A stretch of DNA of 64,000 nt from an uncultured Clostridia bacterium. GTDB taxonomy: Bacteria > Bacillota > Clostridia > Christensenellales > CAG-314. Shown here piece after piece: positions 2,596 through 64,000 of the stretch; the stretch's first letter is position 1, and every line of letters starts with the position of its first letter. The notes under the pieces were generated by a model that was not told the origin of the DNA, searched no databases, and saw nothing but the letters and a program-made list of their open reading frames with translations. The stretch is taken from NCBI GenBank assembly GCA_947628135.1, contig CANQYT010000009.1:1-64000 (forward strand), in the 5' to 3' direction. The translations under genes were made by a program, and so were the position numbers.

Positions 2596-3405
2596 ATGGA
2601 CAAAAAGAAATTCGAAGAATATCTTGCCAAACGCGGCAAAGCAAGCGTGGCGGAAGTGCAGCGCGAACTTTCTCTGCCCTATTCGGAAGCGCGCGCTCTC
2701 TTTTCCGCATTGGAAAAGGACGGGCGCGTCTCTCTGGACGGCGTAACGTTCGTCTGGATCGCGCCCGATAAGCCCCAAGGCGGGCAGGAATACGACATTG
2801 ACGAACTGCGCCGCGAACTGCGCGAACTCGTCAACGGCAAAACGGACGACGGCACGCCATTGCTGTACGTAAAGGCGTTGGAGTACGCTTTGCAGCAGGA
2901 GGCGGCGAGTATCGAGCAATTCAAAAAACGCTTTCCGATAGCGGACAGCACCGCGCGGCTGATATTGGATTGGTGCGTAAAAAACGGCTACGTTGCAAAC
3001 GGCGTTCCCGTCATAACCCGCAAAAAATTCGACGCCACTTTCGGCAGGTACATCTCTCCCCGTCCGCCCAACGTCAAGCAGAAAAAGGATATCCCAAAGA
3101 AAAAATTCCTCCAAAATCTTTCTCAGCAGGAACTTGACAAACTCGCCCTGTACGGTTTCTCCGAAGAAAAACTGTCCGAGGTGTACGACAGTCTCACGCG
3201 TGTGGACGACGTACTTCGCATTGCGATAAAGTACAATCCGCTGTTGAACAAAGAAAAACTGCAAAGCGGTCTGGACGGACTGTACAGCGTCGCTTCGAAA
3301 GCCGACCTCACTTTGTTTACGGCGTTTTACGGCGCGCTTCTGAAAGTACGGCATATGACGGACGAAATTTTCATCAAATTCCGCGACAACATTCTGAAAG
3401 GCTGA
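2596..3405 (+). CDS. Winged-helix protein with FtsK-gamma-like segments, downstream of the TraG-like gene
   Basis: Segments SVAEVQRELSLPYSEARALFSALEKDGRV and SIEQFKKRFPIADSTARLILDWCVKNGYV resemble FtsK gamma wHTH. Confidence 0.5.
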   Translation: MDKKKFEEYLAKRGKASVAEVQRELSLPYSEARALFSALEKDGRVSLDGVTFVWIAPDKPQGGQEYDIDELRRELRELVNGKTDDGTPLLYVKALEYALQQEAASIEQFKKRFPIADSTARLILDWCVKNGYVANGVPVITRKKFDATFGRYISPRPPNVKQKKDIPKKKFLQNLSQQELDKLALYGFSEEKLSEVYDSLTRVDDVLRIAIKYNPLLNKEKLQSGLDGLYSVASKADLTLFTAFYGALLKVRHMTDEIFIKFRDNILKG

Positions 3406-40916: not shown

Positions 40917-41110
40917 TTGACAAATCCCTTTGCTCCGCGCTATAATGGTGCTACCACATTACTCTTAATATTATTTTGCTAACGCGCACACTATATCGTG
41001 GTAGAATAGTGTGTTTCATTCGCAGTGTGCGTTGGCATATTGAGAGTAGTGTGGTAACTATCGGAACACGCGTCTACAAGTGCCGTTTCGGTAGGGACGG
41101 CACTTTTTTT
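40917..41110 (+). ncRNA. Structured leader RNA family, member 1 (promoter plus transcript 40953-41110)
   Basis: TTGACA-N18-TATAAT; stem ACCACATTACTC...GAGTAGTGTGGT; inner hairpin CACACTAT/ATAGTGTG; terminator GTGCCGT/ACGGCAC + T7; CUAUCG (41058-41063) pairs with CGGUAG (41089-41094) in the terminator loop. Confidence 0.75.
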
Positions 41111-41206: not shown

Positions 41207-44200
41207 ATGAAAACAAAACGCATTTTGTTTATTGCAATTACGGTCATTCTGATCGTTACGCTTGCCATTGTTGCGTTTGTTGCCTGCGACGGAAATTCCG
41301 ACGGAGACGGTACAGGTGGTGGCAGCGGTCATCAGCACACTTTTTCCGATGGGTGGGATTGGGACGATACGTATCACTGGCATCCTGCCACCTGCGGACA
41401 TACGGCGGAAAGATCGGACGTAGAGAAACACGATTTCGATTCAGACGGTATGTGCAAATGCGGTTATCAAAGTAAAGGCGTTTACACTGTAACGTTTGTT
41501 GCCGACGGACAGACGGTAGAAATTGTTACATACAGTGCCGACGATACGAGTATTTCCGAGCCGTCCGTCCCGTACAAAGAATATTACGAGGGAGCGTGGG
41601 CTGATTACACCCTCGACAACGGAAATATAACGGTTGAAGCGGTTTACACGCCGATAGAGTATTCGATTATGTTTATCGGATATAACGACCAATATATAGA
41701 AATATTTTACAATATTGAAAATGTCGACGAGATAGTTGCTCCCCAAGTGCCCGAAAAGCCCCACTACACAGGTGTGTGGGATATGTGGGAATATTTTGAA
41801 CCGTTTATGTTTGACACCCAATATTTTTACGCGCAATACACAGCGACAGAATACATCATCACTTTTGAAGAGGGTGACTTTTCTCAACAGTACACCTACA
41901 CTGAGGAAACGGTTGACAGTGTTGTTCCCCCACAAGTACCCTACAAGCAGTACTATTGGGGCTCGTGGGGAAATTATCAATTTGAATACAACAACGAACA
42001 GGTCGTCAACGCCGTGTACACACCGATAGAGTACTCCGTTACATTTGTTGCGGACAACGACGACCCAAGGCATCCTTCCTCTACAACCGTCACCTACACG
42101 GTGGAGAACGCTGACAGTTTTGTCTCGCCCGAAGTTCCCGAAAAAAGATACTACACGGGAGAATGGGAAGATTACGAACTTAATTTTTCACAAGACCAAA
42201 CCGTATACGCCAACTACACACCCATTGAGTACACGGTTACTTTCGTCGCGGACGACTTTTCGCAACAGCGTACTTACACTGTTGACACTTGGTACGATCT
42301 TGTAGAGCCGGAAGTCCCCGCCAAGCCTCACTACACGGGCAAGTGGCAAAATTATTGGTTGCAATATGACAATGAACAAATTGTCAATGCCGAGTACACG
42401 CCGATAGAGTACACAATAACTTTTGTGTTTGAGGGTAGTGATACGAAAGTTACCTATACGGTAGAGACAATGCAAGATGTTTCCGCCCCTCAAAAACCGG
42501 AAAAAACAGGTTATCTCTGCCGTTGGGATGAATACGAATTGGAGTTTGACAACAATCAAAAAGTTAACGGCAGTTACGTTCCCAAAACCTACACGGTAAA
42601 TTTGGAATACGGCGAGGCAACGGGCGACCAACATACGTTTACTATCGACTTTGACGAAACTATTGTCGGGTTGCCCCAACCGCAAGTTTACGGAAAGGAA
42701 TTTTGGGGTTGGTTCTACAACGGAACTTTGATTGACGCCAATACCGCTTGGCAATGGGACGACGACAATGCAACCTTGACTGCACGCTTTCTCAATACGC
42801 AAGGCGTGGTTTACAATCTTATCTATGGACAGGACGGCAGTGACTTCTACGAAGTTTACGGATACAATCATCTGGACGGAATAGACGACGTTCGAATTTT
42901 GGATACGTACAAAGATATGCCGGTAACAAGTATAAGAAGCAGTGCTTTCTCCTCTTGCAGCGAATTGATATCCATAACAATTCCGAGCACCGTCACGAGT
43001 ATAGGCAACAGTGCTTTCGAAAGTTGCAGTCAGTTGACTACTGTGTATTGGAATGCGACAAATTGTACAAATGCGTGGTCAATATTCACAAATTGTTCCC
43101 TATTGTCTAATATAGTATTCGGCGAAAACGTTCAAACGATTCCCTCTGGTGCTTTCGCCAATTGCAGCAATTTGACAGAAATAACTATTCCGAGTACCGT
43201 TACAAGTATAGGTCAGAGTGCTTTCGCCAATTGTAGCAATTTACAAACAGTGACTTTTGACGGCGACAGCCAACTGCAAAACATAGGTAGCAGTACTTTT
43301 TACAATTGTAGCAGTTTGACGGAAATAATCATTGCCATTGCTGTCACAAGTATAGACTCGCGGGCTTTCAATGAATGCAGTCATTTGATAATATATTGTG
43401 AGGCGGCAGAACAGCCGTCCGGCTGGGATAGCAATTGGAATTCCTCCGATTGTCCCGTTGTGTGGAATTGCTTACATAACAACCTTGATACAGACGGATA
43501 CATTTATATCGTTGTGAAAGGCGTTAGGTATGCGCTCAAAGACGACACGGCGACCGTTGTGTCCTACAATTATTCGGGTGATGTTACGATTTCGTCACAA
43601 GTGGAGTACAACGGTAAACAATACCCTGTCACAAGTATAGGCGATTCCGCTTTTTCCGAGTGTAGCAGTTTGACGGAAATCACCATTCCGGGCAGTGTCA
43701 CAAGTATAGGCAATGGTGCTTTCTACGAGTGCGCCAATTTGCAAACTGTGACCTTTGACGGCGACAGCCAACTGCAAAGTATACGCGGCGGTGCTTTCCT
43801 CTATTGTAGTAGTTTGACGGAAATAACAATTCCGAGTACAGTCACGAGCATAGGCTATAATGCTTTCTACGGTTGCAGCAGTTTGAAAGAAATAACCATT
43901 CCTGCAAGCGTTACAACTATAAGCGATGGTGCTTTCCTCGATTGCAGTCAGTTGACTACCGTGTATTGGAATGCAACCAACTGCACGAAAGATGGATCTA
44001 ATTGGAATGGAGTATTTAGTTCTTCTCTGTCACAATTGGTAATCGGTGCAAACGTTCAAACGATCCCCGATTATCTTTTCTTGAATTGGAATGGTTTGCA
44101 AACGGTAACCTTTGACGGCGACAGCCAACTGCAAAACATAGGTGGGAATGCTTTCGCCCATTGCAGCAGTTTGACGGAAATAACCATTCCGAGCACCGTC

Positions 44201-44662
44201 ACAACCATCGGTGAGTATTCTTTTCGCGGTACTGGTTTGCAGACTGTTACTTTTAAGATTGACAGCCAATTGCAAAGTATAGGTGAGTGTGCTTTCCTCG
44301 ATTGCAGCAATTTAACGGAAATAATTATCCCGAGTACCGTTACTAGCATAGGCTATTATGCTTTCAACGGTTGCACCAACTTGCAAACGGTAACCTTTGA
44401 CGGTGACAGCCAACTGCAAAGCATAGGTGTGCAGGTTTTTTACAATTGCAGCAAATTGAAATCTATAACAATCCCGAGCACCGTAACATTTATAGGGGCT
44501 AATGCTTTCTTGGGTTGCAGCGGTTTGCAAACAGTAAGGTTTGAAAACCCCGACGGTTGGAAAGCCAACGATAACAGCCTTGTTCTCACCGATCCCGCGC
44601 AAAATGCAGTATACTTGACTGATGAGAATATGTATAGTCGTAGTTATTGGACTCGTTCCTAG
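41207..44662 (+). CDS. Large surface lipoprotein: His/Cys N-terminal motif, InlB-like repeats, BspA-type LRR_5 repeats
   Basis: Lipobox-like FVAC; HQHTFSDGWDWDDTYHWHPATCGH...CKCGY; VTFVADxxxxxxTYTVxxxxxxxxPEVPxKxxYTGxW repeats; LTEITIPSTVTSIGxxAFxxCSxLQTVTFDGDSQLQxIG repeats. Confidence 0.93.
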   Translation: MKTKRILFIAITVILIVTLAIVAFVACDGNSDGDGTGGGSGHQHTFSDGWDWDDTYHWHPATCGHTAERSDVEKHDFDSDGMCKCGYQSKGVYTVTFVADGQTVEIVTYSADDTSISEPSVPYKEYYEGAWADYTLDNGNITVEAVYTPIEYSIMFIGYNDQYIEIFYNIENVDEIVAPQVPEKPHYTGVWDMWEYFEPFMFDTQYFYAQYTATEYIITFEEGDFSQQYTYTEETVDSVVPPQVPYKQYYWGSWGNYQFEYNNEQVVNAVYTPIEYSVTFVADNDDPRHPSSTTVTYTVENADSFVSPEVPEKRYYTGEWEDYELNFSQDQTVYANYTPIEYTVTFVADDFSQQRTYTVDTWYDLVEPEVPAKPHYTGKWQNYWLQYDNEQIVNAEYTPIEYTITFVFEGSDTKVTYTVETMQDVSAPQKPEKTGYLCRWDEYELEFDNNQKVNGSYVPKTYTVNLEYGEATGDQHTFTIDFDETIVGLPQPQVYGKEFWGWFYNGTLIDANTAWQWDDDNATLTARFLNTQGVVYNLIYGQDGSDFYEVYGYNHLDGIDDVRILDTYKDMPVTSIRSSAFSSCSELISITIPSTVTSIGNSAFESCSQLTTVYWNATNCTNAWSIFTNCSLLSNIVFGENVQTIPSGAFANCSNLTEITIPSTVTSIGQSAFANCSNLQTVTFDGDSQLQNIGSSTFYNCSSLTEIIIAIAVTSIDSRAFNECSHLIIYCEAAEQPSGWDSNWNSSDCPVVWNCLHNNLDTDGYIYIVVKGVRYALKDDTATVVSYNYSGDVTISSQVEYNGKQYPVTSIGDSAFSECSSLTEITIPGSVTSIGNGAFYECANLQTVTFDGDSQLQSIRGGAFLYCSSLTEITIPSTVTSIGYNAFYGCSSLKEITIPASVTTISDGAFLDCSQLTTVYWNATNCTKDGSNWNGVFSSSLSQLVIGANVQTIPDYLFLNWNGLQTVTFDGDSQLQNIGGNAFAHCSSLTEITIPSTVTTIGEYSFRGTGLQTVTFKIDSQLQSIGECAFLDCSNLTEIIIPSTVTSIGYYAFNGCTNLQTVTFDGDSQLQSIGVQVFYNCSKLKSITIPSTVTFIGANAFLGCSGLQTVRFENPDGWKANDNSLVLTDPAQNAVYLTDENMYSRSYWTRS

Positions 44663-55479: not shown

Positions 55480-55930
55480 CTTATGTATATAGAGTTACTG
55501 CGGTGCGTAAGCGTACTTGATACCGCTGACGCATAGGCGCTCCTCTTTCGCACAATTTTCGCAAACTCAAATTGTGCGTGTGCTACATTGACTGCGGCGG
55601 CGCGTAAGCGCATAGGATAATGTTACTAAGTACATAAAAGGAAACCGACCTCAGACGGGAGAGTCGGTTTCATATATGTTGTCTATCAAATTTTATTGTC
55701 TAATAAATTTTAATCGCGTATATCCGAAACATTTTTTTTTCAACAGTTGCAAACTTCATATCCGCGAACAGGGGTGGGCGGTCGGGGACATTGTAACACC
55801 GAGAGTGAGGGTGTTCGACGAAAAATAATCTGCAACAAGCGTGCCGCACCCTGTTAGGTGCGGCACGCGAAGTGAAGCCTTTTTTCACCGAATACCCGAT
55901 ACGACTTGTCGCACGTGTGGTCGGACAATA
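55480..55930. repeat. Dispersed mosaic repeat, copy 4
   Basis: Same module order as copy 1 in part; hairpin GCGTGCCGCACC...GGTGCGGCACGC (55839-55868). Confidence 0.88.
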
Positions 55931-56267
55931 TCAATACATATCTCCGGGATTGGGTTGTGCAACAGGCGTCGGAGGAAAAAAGGAATGTTTCGGTTTAACT
56001 TACAAAAAAACAGCGGCTGTATTCCAAGCCACTGTTTTAGTTGTAATTGTTCGGTCGGTCGCTTCGCAATCACCGAAGCATCCCCTTTTCCGCCGCCTAT
56101 CAATACATATCTCCGCCGGGGTTGGGTGCTACGGGTGCAGGAGAAAAAAGGAATGTTTCGGTTTAACTTACAAAAAAACAGCGGCTGTATTTCAAGCCAC
56201 TGTTTTGGTTGTAATTATTCGGTCGGTCGCTTCGCAATCACCGAAGCATCCCCTTTTCCGCCGCCTA

Positions 56268-56270
<3 letters not shown>
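55928..56270. repeat. ~168-170-bp tandem duplication comprising the groEL 3' end, stop codon and terminator
   Basis: tatcaatacatatc... recurs at 55928, 56098, 56266; long near-identical block aaaaaggaatgtttcggtttaacttacaaaaaaacagcggctgtattycaagccactgtttt. Confidence 0.92.
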
Positions 56271-57893
<1,623 letters not shown>

Positions 57894-59856: not shown

Positions 59857-60043
59857 TTGACAAGATTTGCAAACTGTTATACAATGAAATCACCACATTG
59901 TCATTTTAATATTGCAAAACACACATACTCACTCGGTAGAGTTATGTGTCTTTAATCTTTGTGTGTTTTGCAAAGTGACAGTGTGGTAACTATCGAGGCG
60001 CATATTCTACAAGTGTCGCAGCGGTAGTTGCGGCACTTTTTTT
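59857..60043 (+). ncRNA. Structured leader RNA family, member 2 (promoter plus transcript 59892-60043)
   Basis: TTGACA-N17-TACAAT; stem ACCACATTGTCA...TGACAGTGTGGT; inner hairpin ACACATA/TATGTGT; terminator GTGTCGC/GCGGCAC + T7; CUAUCG (59990-59995) pairs with CGGUAG (60022-60027). Confidence 0.75.
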
Positions 60044-60078: not shown

Positions 60079-61965
60079 ATGAACAAATGTAGCAAATGCG
60101 GTGCAGAGTTCGAAGGCAACTTCTGTCCCGAATGCGGCACGCCTTCACAAGCCCCAAAGGTGTGTCCCAAGTGCGGCGCGCAACTGAAAGAGAACGTCAA
60201 GTTCTGCCCTAATTGCGGCTGCGCCTTTTTGCCGACCCAAGCGGACGAAACGCAAACGGCGTCGTCTGCGCCTTCCGCAAAGGCGCATACGCCCATCGAT
60301 TGGCGAAACAACAAAACGTTGCGCAAAATATTGCTGTTTGCGCCCCTTGTTATCTTCGCCCTTTGGTCGGTGTTGATGTTTGCCTTTATGGCTGCGCCCG
60401 TGATGAAAGGCGAGCCGCCTGTTATGCCAAACGTAAGCGTGTACGGCTTTTTCAATCCGGAAACGGTGGAAAGCGACCCCGATCTTGCCGCAATAACGCC
60501 CGCCGCCGGCGCTTTGGTGGCTATGGCGGCAGTTGCGTTGCTGTATGCGGGTTATCTTGTATATTTGCAATTCAAGGGAGGCAGAGTAGCGCGTTGGCTC
60601 GCTCACTATTTCAGCGTGCTGCCGTACGTTCTCGTATTGGTTTGTACTTCCGTCATCGCCGTCAAGTTTAACGCCTATGCCGAGGGTATGGACGAAATGA
60701 AAGGCAGTTTCGTAAGCGTAACGGTGTCGCTTACCGTAGTGTTTTTGTTGTTGCACGCCGCTTCGCTTGTGCTATGCAAATTGTTCAAAATCTCCGTGAT
60801 TACGCAGGAAGATCGCGAACAAGCCAAGCAACGTTTCGAAGCGTGGTTGGAGCGGCGCAGATATTTGCGTCAATGTCGTCCCGTCATTGCTCAACGCTTA
60901 AAAAAAGAGCCGTATATACGCGGTCGTAGTTGCGGCATAATATGTATTGTGGCAATAATTTGTCTTTTCGTCGCAATTTGTGGCTCTTTGCCATACACAG
61001 TTCAAGCCATAAAATTTCATAGCGATTACGACACGCGCTTTGAGTGGAATTGGAACGGATACCACGCAGGGGAGCTGCTAACCACGGGATATAGTTATAT
61101 ATATACACTGCAGTTTGAATATCTTGAAGAAACGTGGAATGAAATGCCGTCTCAGATTGAAGAATGTTATAGAGTCGCTCAAAAGTATTACGGTAACTAT
61201 CAAGAAGATACGCAAGCACAATCGAAAGGAGTCGATTTCGAAGAATGGTTGCAAAGCAAATCCTATTCAACCCAAAAACTCAATTTCGGCGAATCGATGG
61301 GATATTGGTCTAAGGCGTATCAGGATTGGTGGGCGAATAAGAGATATGTATCAACGTCGGAACTTTACGAACTCGGAGTCGATGGGTATATCGCTCAACG
61401 CTACCCCGACGGTTTTGGCGACTTTGTTGAAGAAGTTACGGGAATAAAATCCGATACAGAGGAAGATTATTTGCAATATTACAAAACAATCGAATATGAA
61501 GCGCGAAGACAAGGGTGGAGTCCCTACACTGGTCCTGTTTTTATTGACAGTTTGCAACTTTTGATTCCGACAATTGTTTCTACTATATTAGGAATTGTGT
61601 CGTGCGTGTTGGCATTTCGCAGAAAGTCGCGTGTTTCGGCGGTGTTGGGTTGGCTGTTTGTTGTTGTGTGTTGCAGTACGTTTATCGGTATGATTTTCCC
61701 AACCTACGAAAACCCGGTTAATAGGGGAGATTTTGTAACGTTTCAAATTGCATTGTACGGTATGCTTCCTTTGGCAATTTTGTTCTCCTTGGTCAACGTA
61801 TCCATCCAGGCGGATGACAAGCGCAAAACCCGCAAACGCTTCAAGCGCGAGTACGATGCACAAATGGCTGCGCAAGGCGACGAGTCGGCGTTGTGGTTTG
61901 TCGCCCACAAAAAAGACCGCAAAAGCAAACGACCCAAGTCAACTGCGGACGTCTCCGACAACTGA
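60079..61965 (+). CDS. Zinc-ribbon membrane protein
   Basis: CSKCGAEFEGNFCPECGTP, CPKCGAQLKENVKFCPNCGCAF; multiple TMs. Confidence 0.8.
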   Translation: MNKCSKCGAEFEGNFCPECGTPSQAPKVCPKCGAQLKENVKFCPNCGCAFLPTQADETQTASSAPSAKAHTPIDWRNNKTLRKILLFAPLVIFALWSVLMFAFMAAPVMKGEPPVMPNVSVYGFFNPETVESDPDLAAITPAAGALVAMAAVALLYAGYLVYLQFKGGRVARWLAHYFSVLPYVLVLVCTSVIAVKFNAYAEGMDEMKGSFVSVTVSLTVVFLLLHAASLVLCKLFKISVITQEDREQAKQRFEAWLERRRYLRQCRPVIAQRLKKEPYIRGRSCGIICIVAIICLFVAICGSLPYTVQAIKFHSDYDTRFEWNWNGYHAGELLTTGYSYIYTLQFEYLEETWNEMPSQIEECYRVAQKYYGNYQEDTQAQSKGVDFEEWLQSKSYSTQKLNFGESMGYWSKAYQDWWANKRYVSTSELYELGVDGYIAQRYPDGFGDFVEEVTGIKSDTEEDYLQYYKTIEYEARRQGWSPYTGPVFIDSLQLLIPTIVSTILGIVSCVLAFRRKSRVSAVLGWLFVVVCCSTFIGMIFPTYENPVNRGDFVTFQIALYGMLPLAILFSLVNVSIQADDKRKTRKRFKREYDAQMAAQGDESALWFVAHKKDRKSKRPKSTADVSDN

Positions 61966-62329: not shown

Positions 62330-62528
62330 TTGACAAATCTTGTACTATGTTATAAAATATCATTGCAACCCGAATTTAATACATTTTGCAAAGGCATACT
62401 TTACTTAGGTAAAGATGTCCTTATTCGCAACCAAACAAATCCTTTGCAGGATGTATTGTTATTCGGTGTTGCAACAACGCGGATGGGCACTTTACAGGTG
62501 TTGTTCCGCGAGAGCAACACCTTTTTTT
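62330..62528 (+). ncRNA. Structured leader RNA family, member 3 (promoter plus transcript ~62362-62528)
   Basis: TTGACA-N17-TAAAAT; stem ATTGCAACCCGAAT...ATTCGGTGTTGCAAC; inner hairpin CTTTAC-TTAG-GTAAAG; terminator GGTGTTG/CAACACC + T7; CGCGGA (62478-62483) pairs with UCCGCG (62505-62510). Confidence 0.72.
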
Positions 62529-62601
62529 GTTGCGACGCGGCTTTTTCCGCAGGTAAACGGGCGGGCAGAGCAAACGATTTTATGTAAAAGGAGAAACTGT
62601 T

Positions 62602-64000
62602 ATGAAGTCACGCAAAATTTTGGTCGTATTGACGGCGACGCTTATTGCGGTGCTTGCCGTTGTGCTGTTTGCGGCGTGCGACGGACACAAACACATCTAT
62701 TCGGAAGATTGGTCGTACGACGATCAATACCATTGGCATCAAGCAATTTGCGGACACAGCAACGCGACAAGCGGCAAGGCGCAGCACTCTTTGAACGCCG
62801 ACGGCGATTGTTCCGTATGCGGTTATTCCCAATCGGCGAAAGGTCTTTCGTTCGAACTCAACGCCGACGGTGCAAGTTGGCGCGTTGTGGGAATGGAAAA
62901 GTCCAACGCCCAAAACGTGGAAATACCCGCCTACTACAAAGACAAACCCGTAACAAGCGTGGGGCAGGACGCATTTTCAAACAAACGTATCAACTACCTC
63001 ACCGTCCCCGCCACCGTTACGGAAATAGCCCAATCGGCGTTTTCCGCTTGCGATTTGGAGAAGGTAACGTTCGAAGGCGACAGTCAACTGCAAACGATAG
63101 GGGAATTTGCTTTCAGTTCCAACAAATTTACCGAAATAACCATTCCCGCAACGGTCACGAGCATAGGCGACAGCGCATTCGGGTTTACGCCCATACAAAA
63201 AGTTTACTACGACGGCACGCCGGACAAATGGTGCAACATCGAGTTCGGAGATTGGGAAGCCAACCCAATGGCGGCAAACAATCAAGGTTACGACAAAATG
63301 GGCGACAGTCACTTTTACGTCAAGCAAAACGGCGCGTGGACGGAATTGACGGAAATAGAAATTCCCCAAGGCACAACAAAAGTCGGCGACTATGCCTTTT
63401 TCGGCTTTAACAACGTCACGTCGGTGGTCATTCCCGACAGCGTCACGGAAATAGGCGAGATATTTTTCGCCAACGACAATTTGAAAAGTCTCACGTTGCC
63501 CTTTGTGGGTAACGGCACAAACAGCACCGAGTTTTGCTGTATCTTCTCGGGCGGCGACAACCCCAACACGCTAAACGTGGACGTAACGGGCGGCACAAGC
63601 ATAGCGGACAACGCCTTTATCGGTCAAAAACTCAACGTTGTCACCCTGCCCGACGGTCTTGTTGACATAGGCGACTATGCCTTTTCGGGGTCAAGCGTAA
63701 AGGAAATAACTATCCCCCAAAGCGTAAAAAACATAGGCGCAGGCGCTTTCGACTCCCGCGCTTTGCACAGCATTTACTACCGCGGCACGATACAAGATTG
63801 GTGCGACATCGAGTTTGCCGACCGCAACGCCAACCCAATGGCTCACGAATATAACTTTACGGACTACAAACCCAAATTTTACCTACAAAACAACGGCGAT
63901 TGGGACGCTATTACTACGTTGCAAGTTCCCGAAGGCGTGCAACAGTTGCACAGTTACGCCTTTTACGGCTTCGATCAACTTACGTCGGCGACCCTACCCG
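62602..64000 (+). CDS. Surface lipoprotein with BspA-type LRR_5 repeats, truncated by window end (absent from the ORF track because no stop is reached)
   Basis: MKSRKILVVLTATLIAVLAVVLFAACDGHKHIYSEDWSYDDQYHWHQAICGH...CSVCGY; VTEIAQSAFSACDLEKVTFEGDSQLQTIGEFAF repeats. Confidence 0.92.
   Translation, partial: MKSRKILVVLTATLIAVLAVVLFAACDGHKHIYSEDWSYDDQYHWHQAICGHSNATSGKAQHSLNADGDCSVCGYSQSAKGLSFELNADGASWRVVGMEKSNAQNVEIPAYYKDKPVTSVGQDAFSNKRINYLTVPATVTEIAQSAFSACDLEKVTFEGDSQLQTIGEFAFSSNKFTEITIPATVTSIGDSAFGFTPIQKVYYDGTPDKWCNIEFGDWEANPMAANNQGYDKMGDSHFYVKQNGAWTELTEIEIPQGTTKVGDYAFFGFNNVTSVVIPDSVTEIGEIFFANDNLKSLTLPFVGNGTNSTEFCCIFSGGDNPNTLNVDVTGGTSIADNAFIGQKLNVVTLPDGLVDIGDYAFSGSSVKEITIPQSVKNIGAGAFDSRALHSIYYRGTIQDWCDIEFADRNANPMAHEYNFTDYKPKFYLQNNGDWDAITTLQVPEGVQQLHSYAFYGFDQLTSATLP

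Follow-up and report, generated by a model that had tools for sequence, protein, structure and literature searches.

The 64,000-nt window (the whole stretch of DNA that was analysed) ends within a lipoprotein gene, and the segment just upstream of it, at 62330-62601, raises the question of whether this gene is preceded by a structured leader RNA and, if so, what that RNA would do. A sequence-only reading had described the segment as the third member of a group of such leaders, with every element present in order. All of these elements (promoter, P1, P2, P3, pairing strand, terminator, SD and ATG) could be located, as follows.

62330-62358, + strand: sigma-A promoter of member 3, with -35 TTGACA (62330-62335), 17 nt, and -10 TAAAAT (62353-62358)
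62365-62472, + strand: 5' domain of member 3 (P1, P2 and the apical P3 hairpin), from the MFE fold, structural alignment and covariance model
62365-62377 and 62461-62472, + strand: the two arms of P1
62375-62381, + strand: TTTAATA, holding the conserved AATA just inside P1
62385-62394 and 62441-62448, + strand: the two arms of P2
within 62396-62414, + strand: P3 hairpin, ACTTTAC-TTAG-GTAAAG
62396-62404, + strand: P3a, ATACTTTAC
from 62408, + strand: conserved GGTA of the P3 loop; P3b is GTAAAG
62408-62428, + strand: P3b and J strand (GGTAAAGATGTCCTTATTCGC), which together pair with the tail in PK2, from RNAduplex and the family swap test
62473-62495, + strand: tail, AACAACGCGGATGGGCACTTTAC
62478-62483, + strand: 5' part of the tail, CGCGGA, which forms PK1, an antiterminator-like pairing, with the terminator loop
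62488-62495, + strand: 3' part of the tail, CACTTTAC, which pairs with P3b (PK2)
62496-62522, + strand: hairpin of the intrinsic terminator, AGGTGTTGTTC-CGCGA-GAGCAACACCT, reaching 62528 with the U-tract
62505-62510, + strand: UCCGCG, the PK1 partner in the terminator
62589-62593, + strand: SD of the downstream gene, whose ATG is at 62602
62602-64000, continuing past the window, + strand: gene for a BspA-type LRR_5 lipoprotein (Pfam PF13306, E 5e-52)

The RNA of member 3 is ~165 nt long, with its +1 near 62365, 6 nt between the end of the -10 element and P1, and the intrinsic terminator as its 3' end. The 181-nt stretch analysed here folds 6.9 SD below dinucleotide shuffles (MFE z -6.9), and the covariance-model match spans 62365-62526 (E 8e-10). 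The duplex between the tail and P3b/J reaches -15.9 kcal/mol (RNAduplex). Taken alone, PK1 of member 3 is only modestly improbable as a chance event (p about 0.03 in comparison with shuffled strands; about 0.002 for members 1 and 2). Two of its six pairs involve UC at 62505-62506, which is the top of the terminator stem and not the loop.

Two covariance models built from members 1-3 and their relatives found six copies of the RNA in the 1.66-Mb genome. Two of them, both of subtype A, lie upstream of member 3 in the window.

40917-41109, + strand: member 1, with promoter 40917-40946, RNA 40953-41109 and terminator 41078-41105
59857-60042, + strand: member 2, with promoter 59857-59885, RNA 59892-60042 and terminator 60011-60038

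Member 1 is followed by a gene for an LRR-repeat lipoprotein (41207-44662) and member 2 by a gene for a double-zinc-ribbon membrane protein (60079-61965); the remaining three copies are also upstream of LRR-like or zinc-ribbon genes. Subtype A is recognized by P1 (ACCACAUU.../...AGUGUGGU), a 5' bulge AAUAUU, P2, a P3 hairpin ending in NNNNGGUA-GA and the tail AACUAUCG...AUCUAC. Member 3 had been regarded as a diverged sequence. Its sequence is indeed different, but it is not a one-off: together with relatives in several genomes of the same genus it forms subtype B, which has P1 UGCGACAC/GUGUCGCA with a bulge of a single nucleotide, P3 ACUUUAC-UUAG-GUAAAG, a J strand containing UAUUCGCA and the tail ACUAUGCG...GCGCUUUAC.

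Members 1 and 2 form PK1 as CUAUCG:CGGUAG, member 3 as CGCGGA:UCCGCG (62478-62483 with 62505-62510). The change on both sides that had been noticed is correct and the pairing is real. PK1 has the same sequence in members 1 and 2, so the three sequences in which covariation had been noticed represent two states only.

The collection of homologues had been set beforehand as the test of this pairing. For 89 non-redundant members, we calculated how well each strand pairs with the partner in its own RNA and with the swapped-in partners of other RNAs; without a pairing constraint, own and swapped values would be equal. This test, which is not R-scape, replaced column-wise covariation on a MAFFT alignment of the tails (A7), because the indel between subtypes A and B shifts PK1 out of register. 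The structural alignment was built by hand, and an automatic helix parser was dropped because it misplaced P1 and P2 in part of the set. The covariation of PK1 (5' half of the tail with the terminator loop) holds, with an own mean of -11.9 vs -6.5 kcal/mol for swapped partners (z -19.8) and 88 distinct helices among the 89 members, which supports a structured leader in which an upstream strand pairs with the loop of the terminator. PK2 (3' half of the tail with the apical region) gives -15.6 vs -9.9 kcal/mol (z -19.7), and P3b with the tail (z -23.2), P3a with P3b (z -16.4) and the arms of P2 (z -13.9) also prefer their own partners. No signal was found in this test for the tail with P3a, and the main controls (5' tail with interior, reversed 3' tail) were near zero. 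Two controls kept a small residual signal: the 3' tail with the loop (z -8), which may come from windows overlapping the PK1 strand, and the reversed 5' tail with the loop (z -5), which may come from composition. A U.A-U triple helix in P3, considered for class-level members of the U5/A5 type, was rejected as a general feature; in subtype A, the strands are complementary to P3b in antiparallel Watson-Crick fashion.

The sequence-only reading overlooked PK2, which is the longer of the two tail pairings (about 14-17 nt paired, compared with about 9 nt for PK1), and its overlap with PK1. When an 8-nt window is moved along the tail, pairing with the loop is seen at nucleotides 1-14 and pairing with the apical region from about nucleotide 7 to the end, so both occur at 7-14. 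The two pairings share at least 2 nt in 88 of 89 members (mean 5.9 nt), and PK1 covers at least 2 nt of the terminator stem in all 89. Because of PK2 and this overlap, the RNA looks like a switch and not like a static pseudoknot. The pairings form a chain, from P3a:P3b through P3b:tail and the pairing of the tail with the loop and upper 5' arm of the terminator to the terminator itself, in which each one excludes its successor, as in a strand-exchange attenuator. A point against a switch is that conserved unpaired positions are few (AATA, GGYR and a purine-purine-C after P1), fewer than in typical metabolite aptamers.

We consider it likely that member 3 belongs to a Clostridia-wide family of cis-acting leader RNAs in which strand exchange controls whether the following gene is transcribed; this would probably switch the adjacent downstream gene, for a surface protein or another accessory function, on or off. 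Transcription would start with the first nucleotide of P1 or one adjacent to it, and P1, P2 and P3 (P3a:P3b) would fold first. The tail that follows P1 would then have two overlapping partners, P3b and J (PK2) or the loop and upper 5' arm of the terminator (PK1). If the tail invades P3, PK2 would consume the shared nucleotides, and the full terminator would form and stop transcription. If P3 is instead held shut by a ligand, a protein or an ion, the tail could capture the terminator loop and upper stem, giving an antiterminator and read-through. This is the direction that we propose, and the opposite direction is also possible; we infer that the switch is regulated and that a trigger exists. 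PK2 is predicted to be stronger than P3 in 75 of 86 members, and the isolated terminator hairpin (mean -16.9 kcal/mol) stronger than PK1 (-11.9 kcal/mol), so termination would be the default end state; read-through would depend on kinetics, which is a point against the proposal. What is observed, and serves as the basis of this proposal, is the architecture, the covariation of P2, P3, PK1 and PK2, the exclusivity through shared nucleotides, the promoter spacing and the co-oriented genes. Member 3 thus has the promoter, structured leader, intrinsic terminator and co-oriented gene of a transcription-attenuating leader, together with what characterizes a strand-exchange expression platform, namely mutually exclusive, individually covarying helices that connect the terminator with an upstream domain.

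The position of the promoter is compatible with a second reading. For 80 of the 89 members a promoter-like pair occurs at one fixed spacing, most with an extended TG, and given this fixed distance transcription is expected to start at P1 or directly next to it. Because +1 falls on P1 and the fold includes the terminator, the RNA is self-contained, and the spacer between promoter and aptamer is absent. The terminated ~165-nt molecule, with the blunt 5' end of P1 and a structured 3' end, could therefore be a stand-alone small RNA that acts in trans or binds a protein, the gene being a mere neighbour. Several members without a close large ORF would fit this as well: about one third have no sizeable ORF within 120 nt, which also counts against control in cis, although many of these have SLOG genes or small ORFs slightly further away. 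Genes of the relatives were found by simple ORF and SD rules, so small ORFs and matches in incomplete MAGs may be missed. The neighbouring genes themselves argue against it. A co-oriented SD and ORF (at least 80 aa) lies within 120 nt of 56 of the 89 members, compared with 3 in divergent orientation and 10 at random positions; the median gap from the RNA to the co-oriented ORFs is 31 nt, and the genes belong to a few recurring classes. In addition, there is competition between tail and terminator, for which a passive 3' end would have no use. We consider a stand-alone small RNA unlikely.

The recurrent classes are lipoproteins with LRR_5 or similar repeats, zinc-ribbon proteins and SLOG-type proteins, with occasional endonuclease-like and HTH genes. 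Pfam annotation of 10 representative downstream proteins gave LRR_5, zinc ribbon, YpsA-SLOG, HNH and DUF559; one SLOG-type protein is PF06908, and the CSCFGH-type is SLOG-like by motif alone, without a Pfam match. The SLOG-type genes accompany a long-P3 subtype carrying GGUAGUAAUACC, hinting that gene classes are specific to subtype. Members before small SLOG-like genes, mostly long-P3 (apical GGUAGNNAUACC), are found at L065, L075, L082, L087, L088, L098, L100, L102, L113, L117, L118, L124 and L131.

A third reading, to which we give somewhat less weight than to the small RNA, is a constitutive attenuator that senses no signal and allows a fixed low read-through, like the antitoxin-RNA terminators of type III toxin-antitoxin loci. 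The order promoter, RNA, terminator and gene would suit it, as would the scarcity of conserved unpaired nucleotides and the high variety of downstream genes. Like the type III antitoxin RNA (ToxI), the leader is a pseudoknotted RNA between a promoter and a terminator, but it has no repeat array; among the downstream genes tested, none of the Pfam matches is a type III toxin, and ToxN was not matched among the Pfam results for the 10 representative proteins. Moreover, two long, conserved and mutually exclusive helices, with an overlap maintained across families, would be needless in such an element.

We also assessed how far the RNA extends beyond this genome. It was found in 14 of 41 genomes of the family (two-sequence model), in 83 of 396 genomes of the order (improved covariance model, E<=0.01) and in 49 of 392 genomes of the class (covariance model, E<=0.001), with well over a hundred copies across the genomes sampled. 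Among 399 genomes sampled phylum-wide, the model matched only in the genome of the window and in none outside. The genus records with names are uncultured Clostridia MAGs, mostly labelled 'Lapin'. Coincidental complementarity between repeated promoters and terminators, or an alignment artefact, is refuted for the family and has a negligible probability: the p of only about 0.03 for PK1 of member 3 alone would allow it, but four pairings at z -14 to -23, main controls near null and the 0 matches outside its own genome in the phylum-wide sample speak against it.

The RNA is an uncatalogued family of leaders in gut Clostridia, spread over many bacterial families and absent from Rfam 15. At gathering and permissive thresholds, no Rfam 15 family covers the RNA in the window or in members from the genus, and the class-level members (E up to 1) gave nothing beyond tRNAs and noise below the threshold. 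At the order level the single non-tRNA match lies away from the RNA (SAM riboswitch RF00162 at L078:1117-1201, + strand, with the RNA at 3085-3233 on the opposite strand). A description of the RNA was not found in open-access full text, and preprints, subscription papers and supplementary motif lists may still hold one. Plasmids had no match to the RNA, and IMG/VR had none to the class-level apical pattern. A phage origin was considered and rejected: besides the absence of an IMG/VR match, the two blastn matches are only in unverified 'Bacteriophage sp.' contigs, MT835845.1 (2077-2229) and MT837627.1 (4149-4266). The first of these carries housekeeping genes (ClpB-, YicC- and peptidase-like) and so looks like mislabelled bacterial DNA.

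Strand exchange in a cis-acting leader, the reading that we prefer, has counterparts in transcriptional riboswitches such as pfl/ZTP and purine xpt (PMC10907184). Like these, the RNA is a 5' leader with exclusive helices, a pseudoknot, a choice between antiterminator and intrinsic terminator, and a design suited to co-transcriptional strand displacement. Unlike them, it is without a known ligand, has few conserved unpaired residues, starts at or beside +1, matches no Rfam class, and exchanges a strand of the apical hairpin itself with the tail. The T-box (RF00230) is similar in its long leader, its terminator/antiterminator choice and its expression-platform pseudoknot, but the genes downstream of our RNA are of the surface, zinc-ribbon and SLOG types and not amino-acid genes, and RF00230 had no match in the window or in genus- or order-level members.

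Leaders of surface-protein genes in Clostridia include c-di-GMP riboswitches. The RNA resembles these in its position before surface-protein genes and differs in having no Rfam match. The GGDEF domain was not found in its own genome (95% complete, with six RNAs) or in the RNA carriers G005, G007, G012, G014, G019 and G021, and c-di-GMP is an unlikely ligand given its absence from the own genome and several RNA-rich relatives. It is possible, and only a little short of an even prospect, that the RNA constitutes a new riboswitch class or a protein-sensing switch, Clostridia-restricted in our samples and absent from Rfam, in which a strand of the apical hairpin is passed between a local partner and the terminator-proximal tail. 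Such a switch, often in tandem and placed before surface lipoproteins, zinc-ribbon membrane proteins and SLOG-fold (YpsA-like) proteins, would sense a signal not yet recognised.

As a common uncatalogued structured RNA whose candidate switch steps (P3, apical pseudoknot, antiterminator, terminator) are legible from covariation, the family could serve as a natural model for co-transcriptional strand exchange and as a route to a signal that would control surface proteins in gut bacteria not yet cultured. Its tandem copies would provide natural two-input arrangements. In several relatives, subtypes A and B stand in tandem before single genes, with A upstream of B, and tandem pairs separated by 225-505 nt are also present in other parts of the order and class. 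Such pairs, most with their own promoter and terminator, lie at L025/L031/L036 (G004:C3), L016 (G004:C2), L047 (G004:C13), L053 (G014:C14), L087, L102, L118, L119, L129 and L173.

Two minor observations concern degenerate and repeated sequence. A degenerate copy at G023:C1:442165 (L007, L137) has lost the 5' domain and kept the tail, a PK1-like strand and the terminator before a zinc-ribbon gene. In the window, a direct tandem repeat with no other copy in the genome lies beside the 3' end of groEL at 55930-56312, and consists of two ~168-nt copies and a 46-nt partial one.
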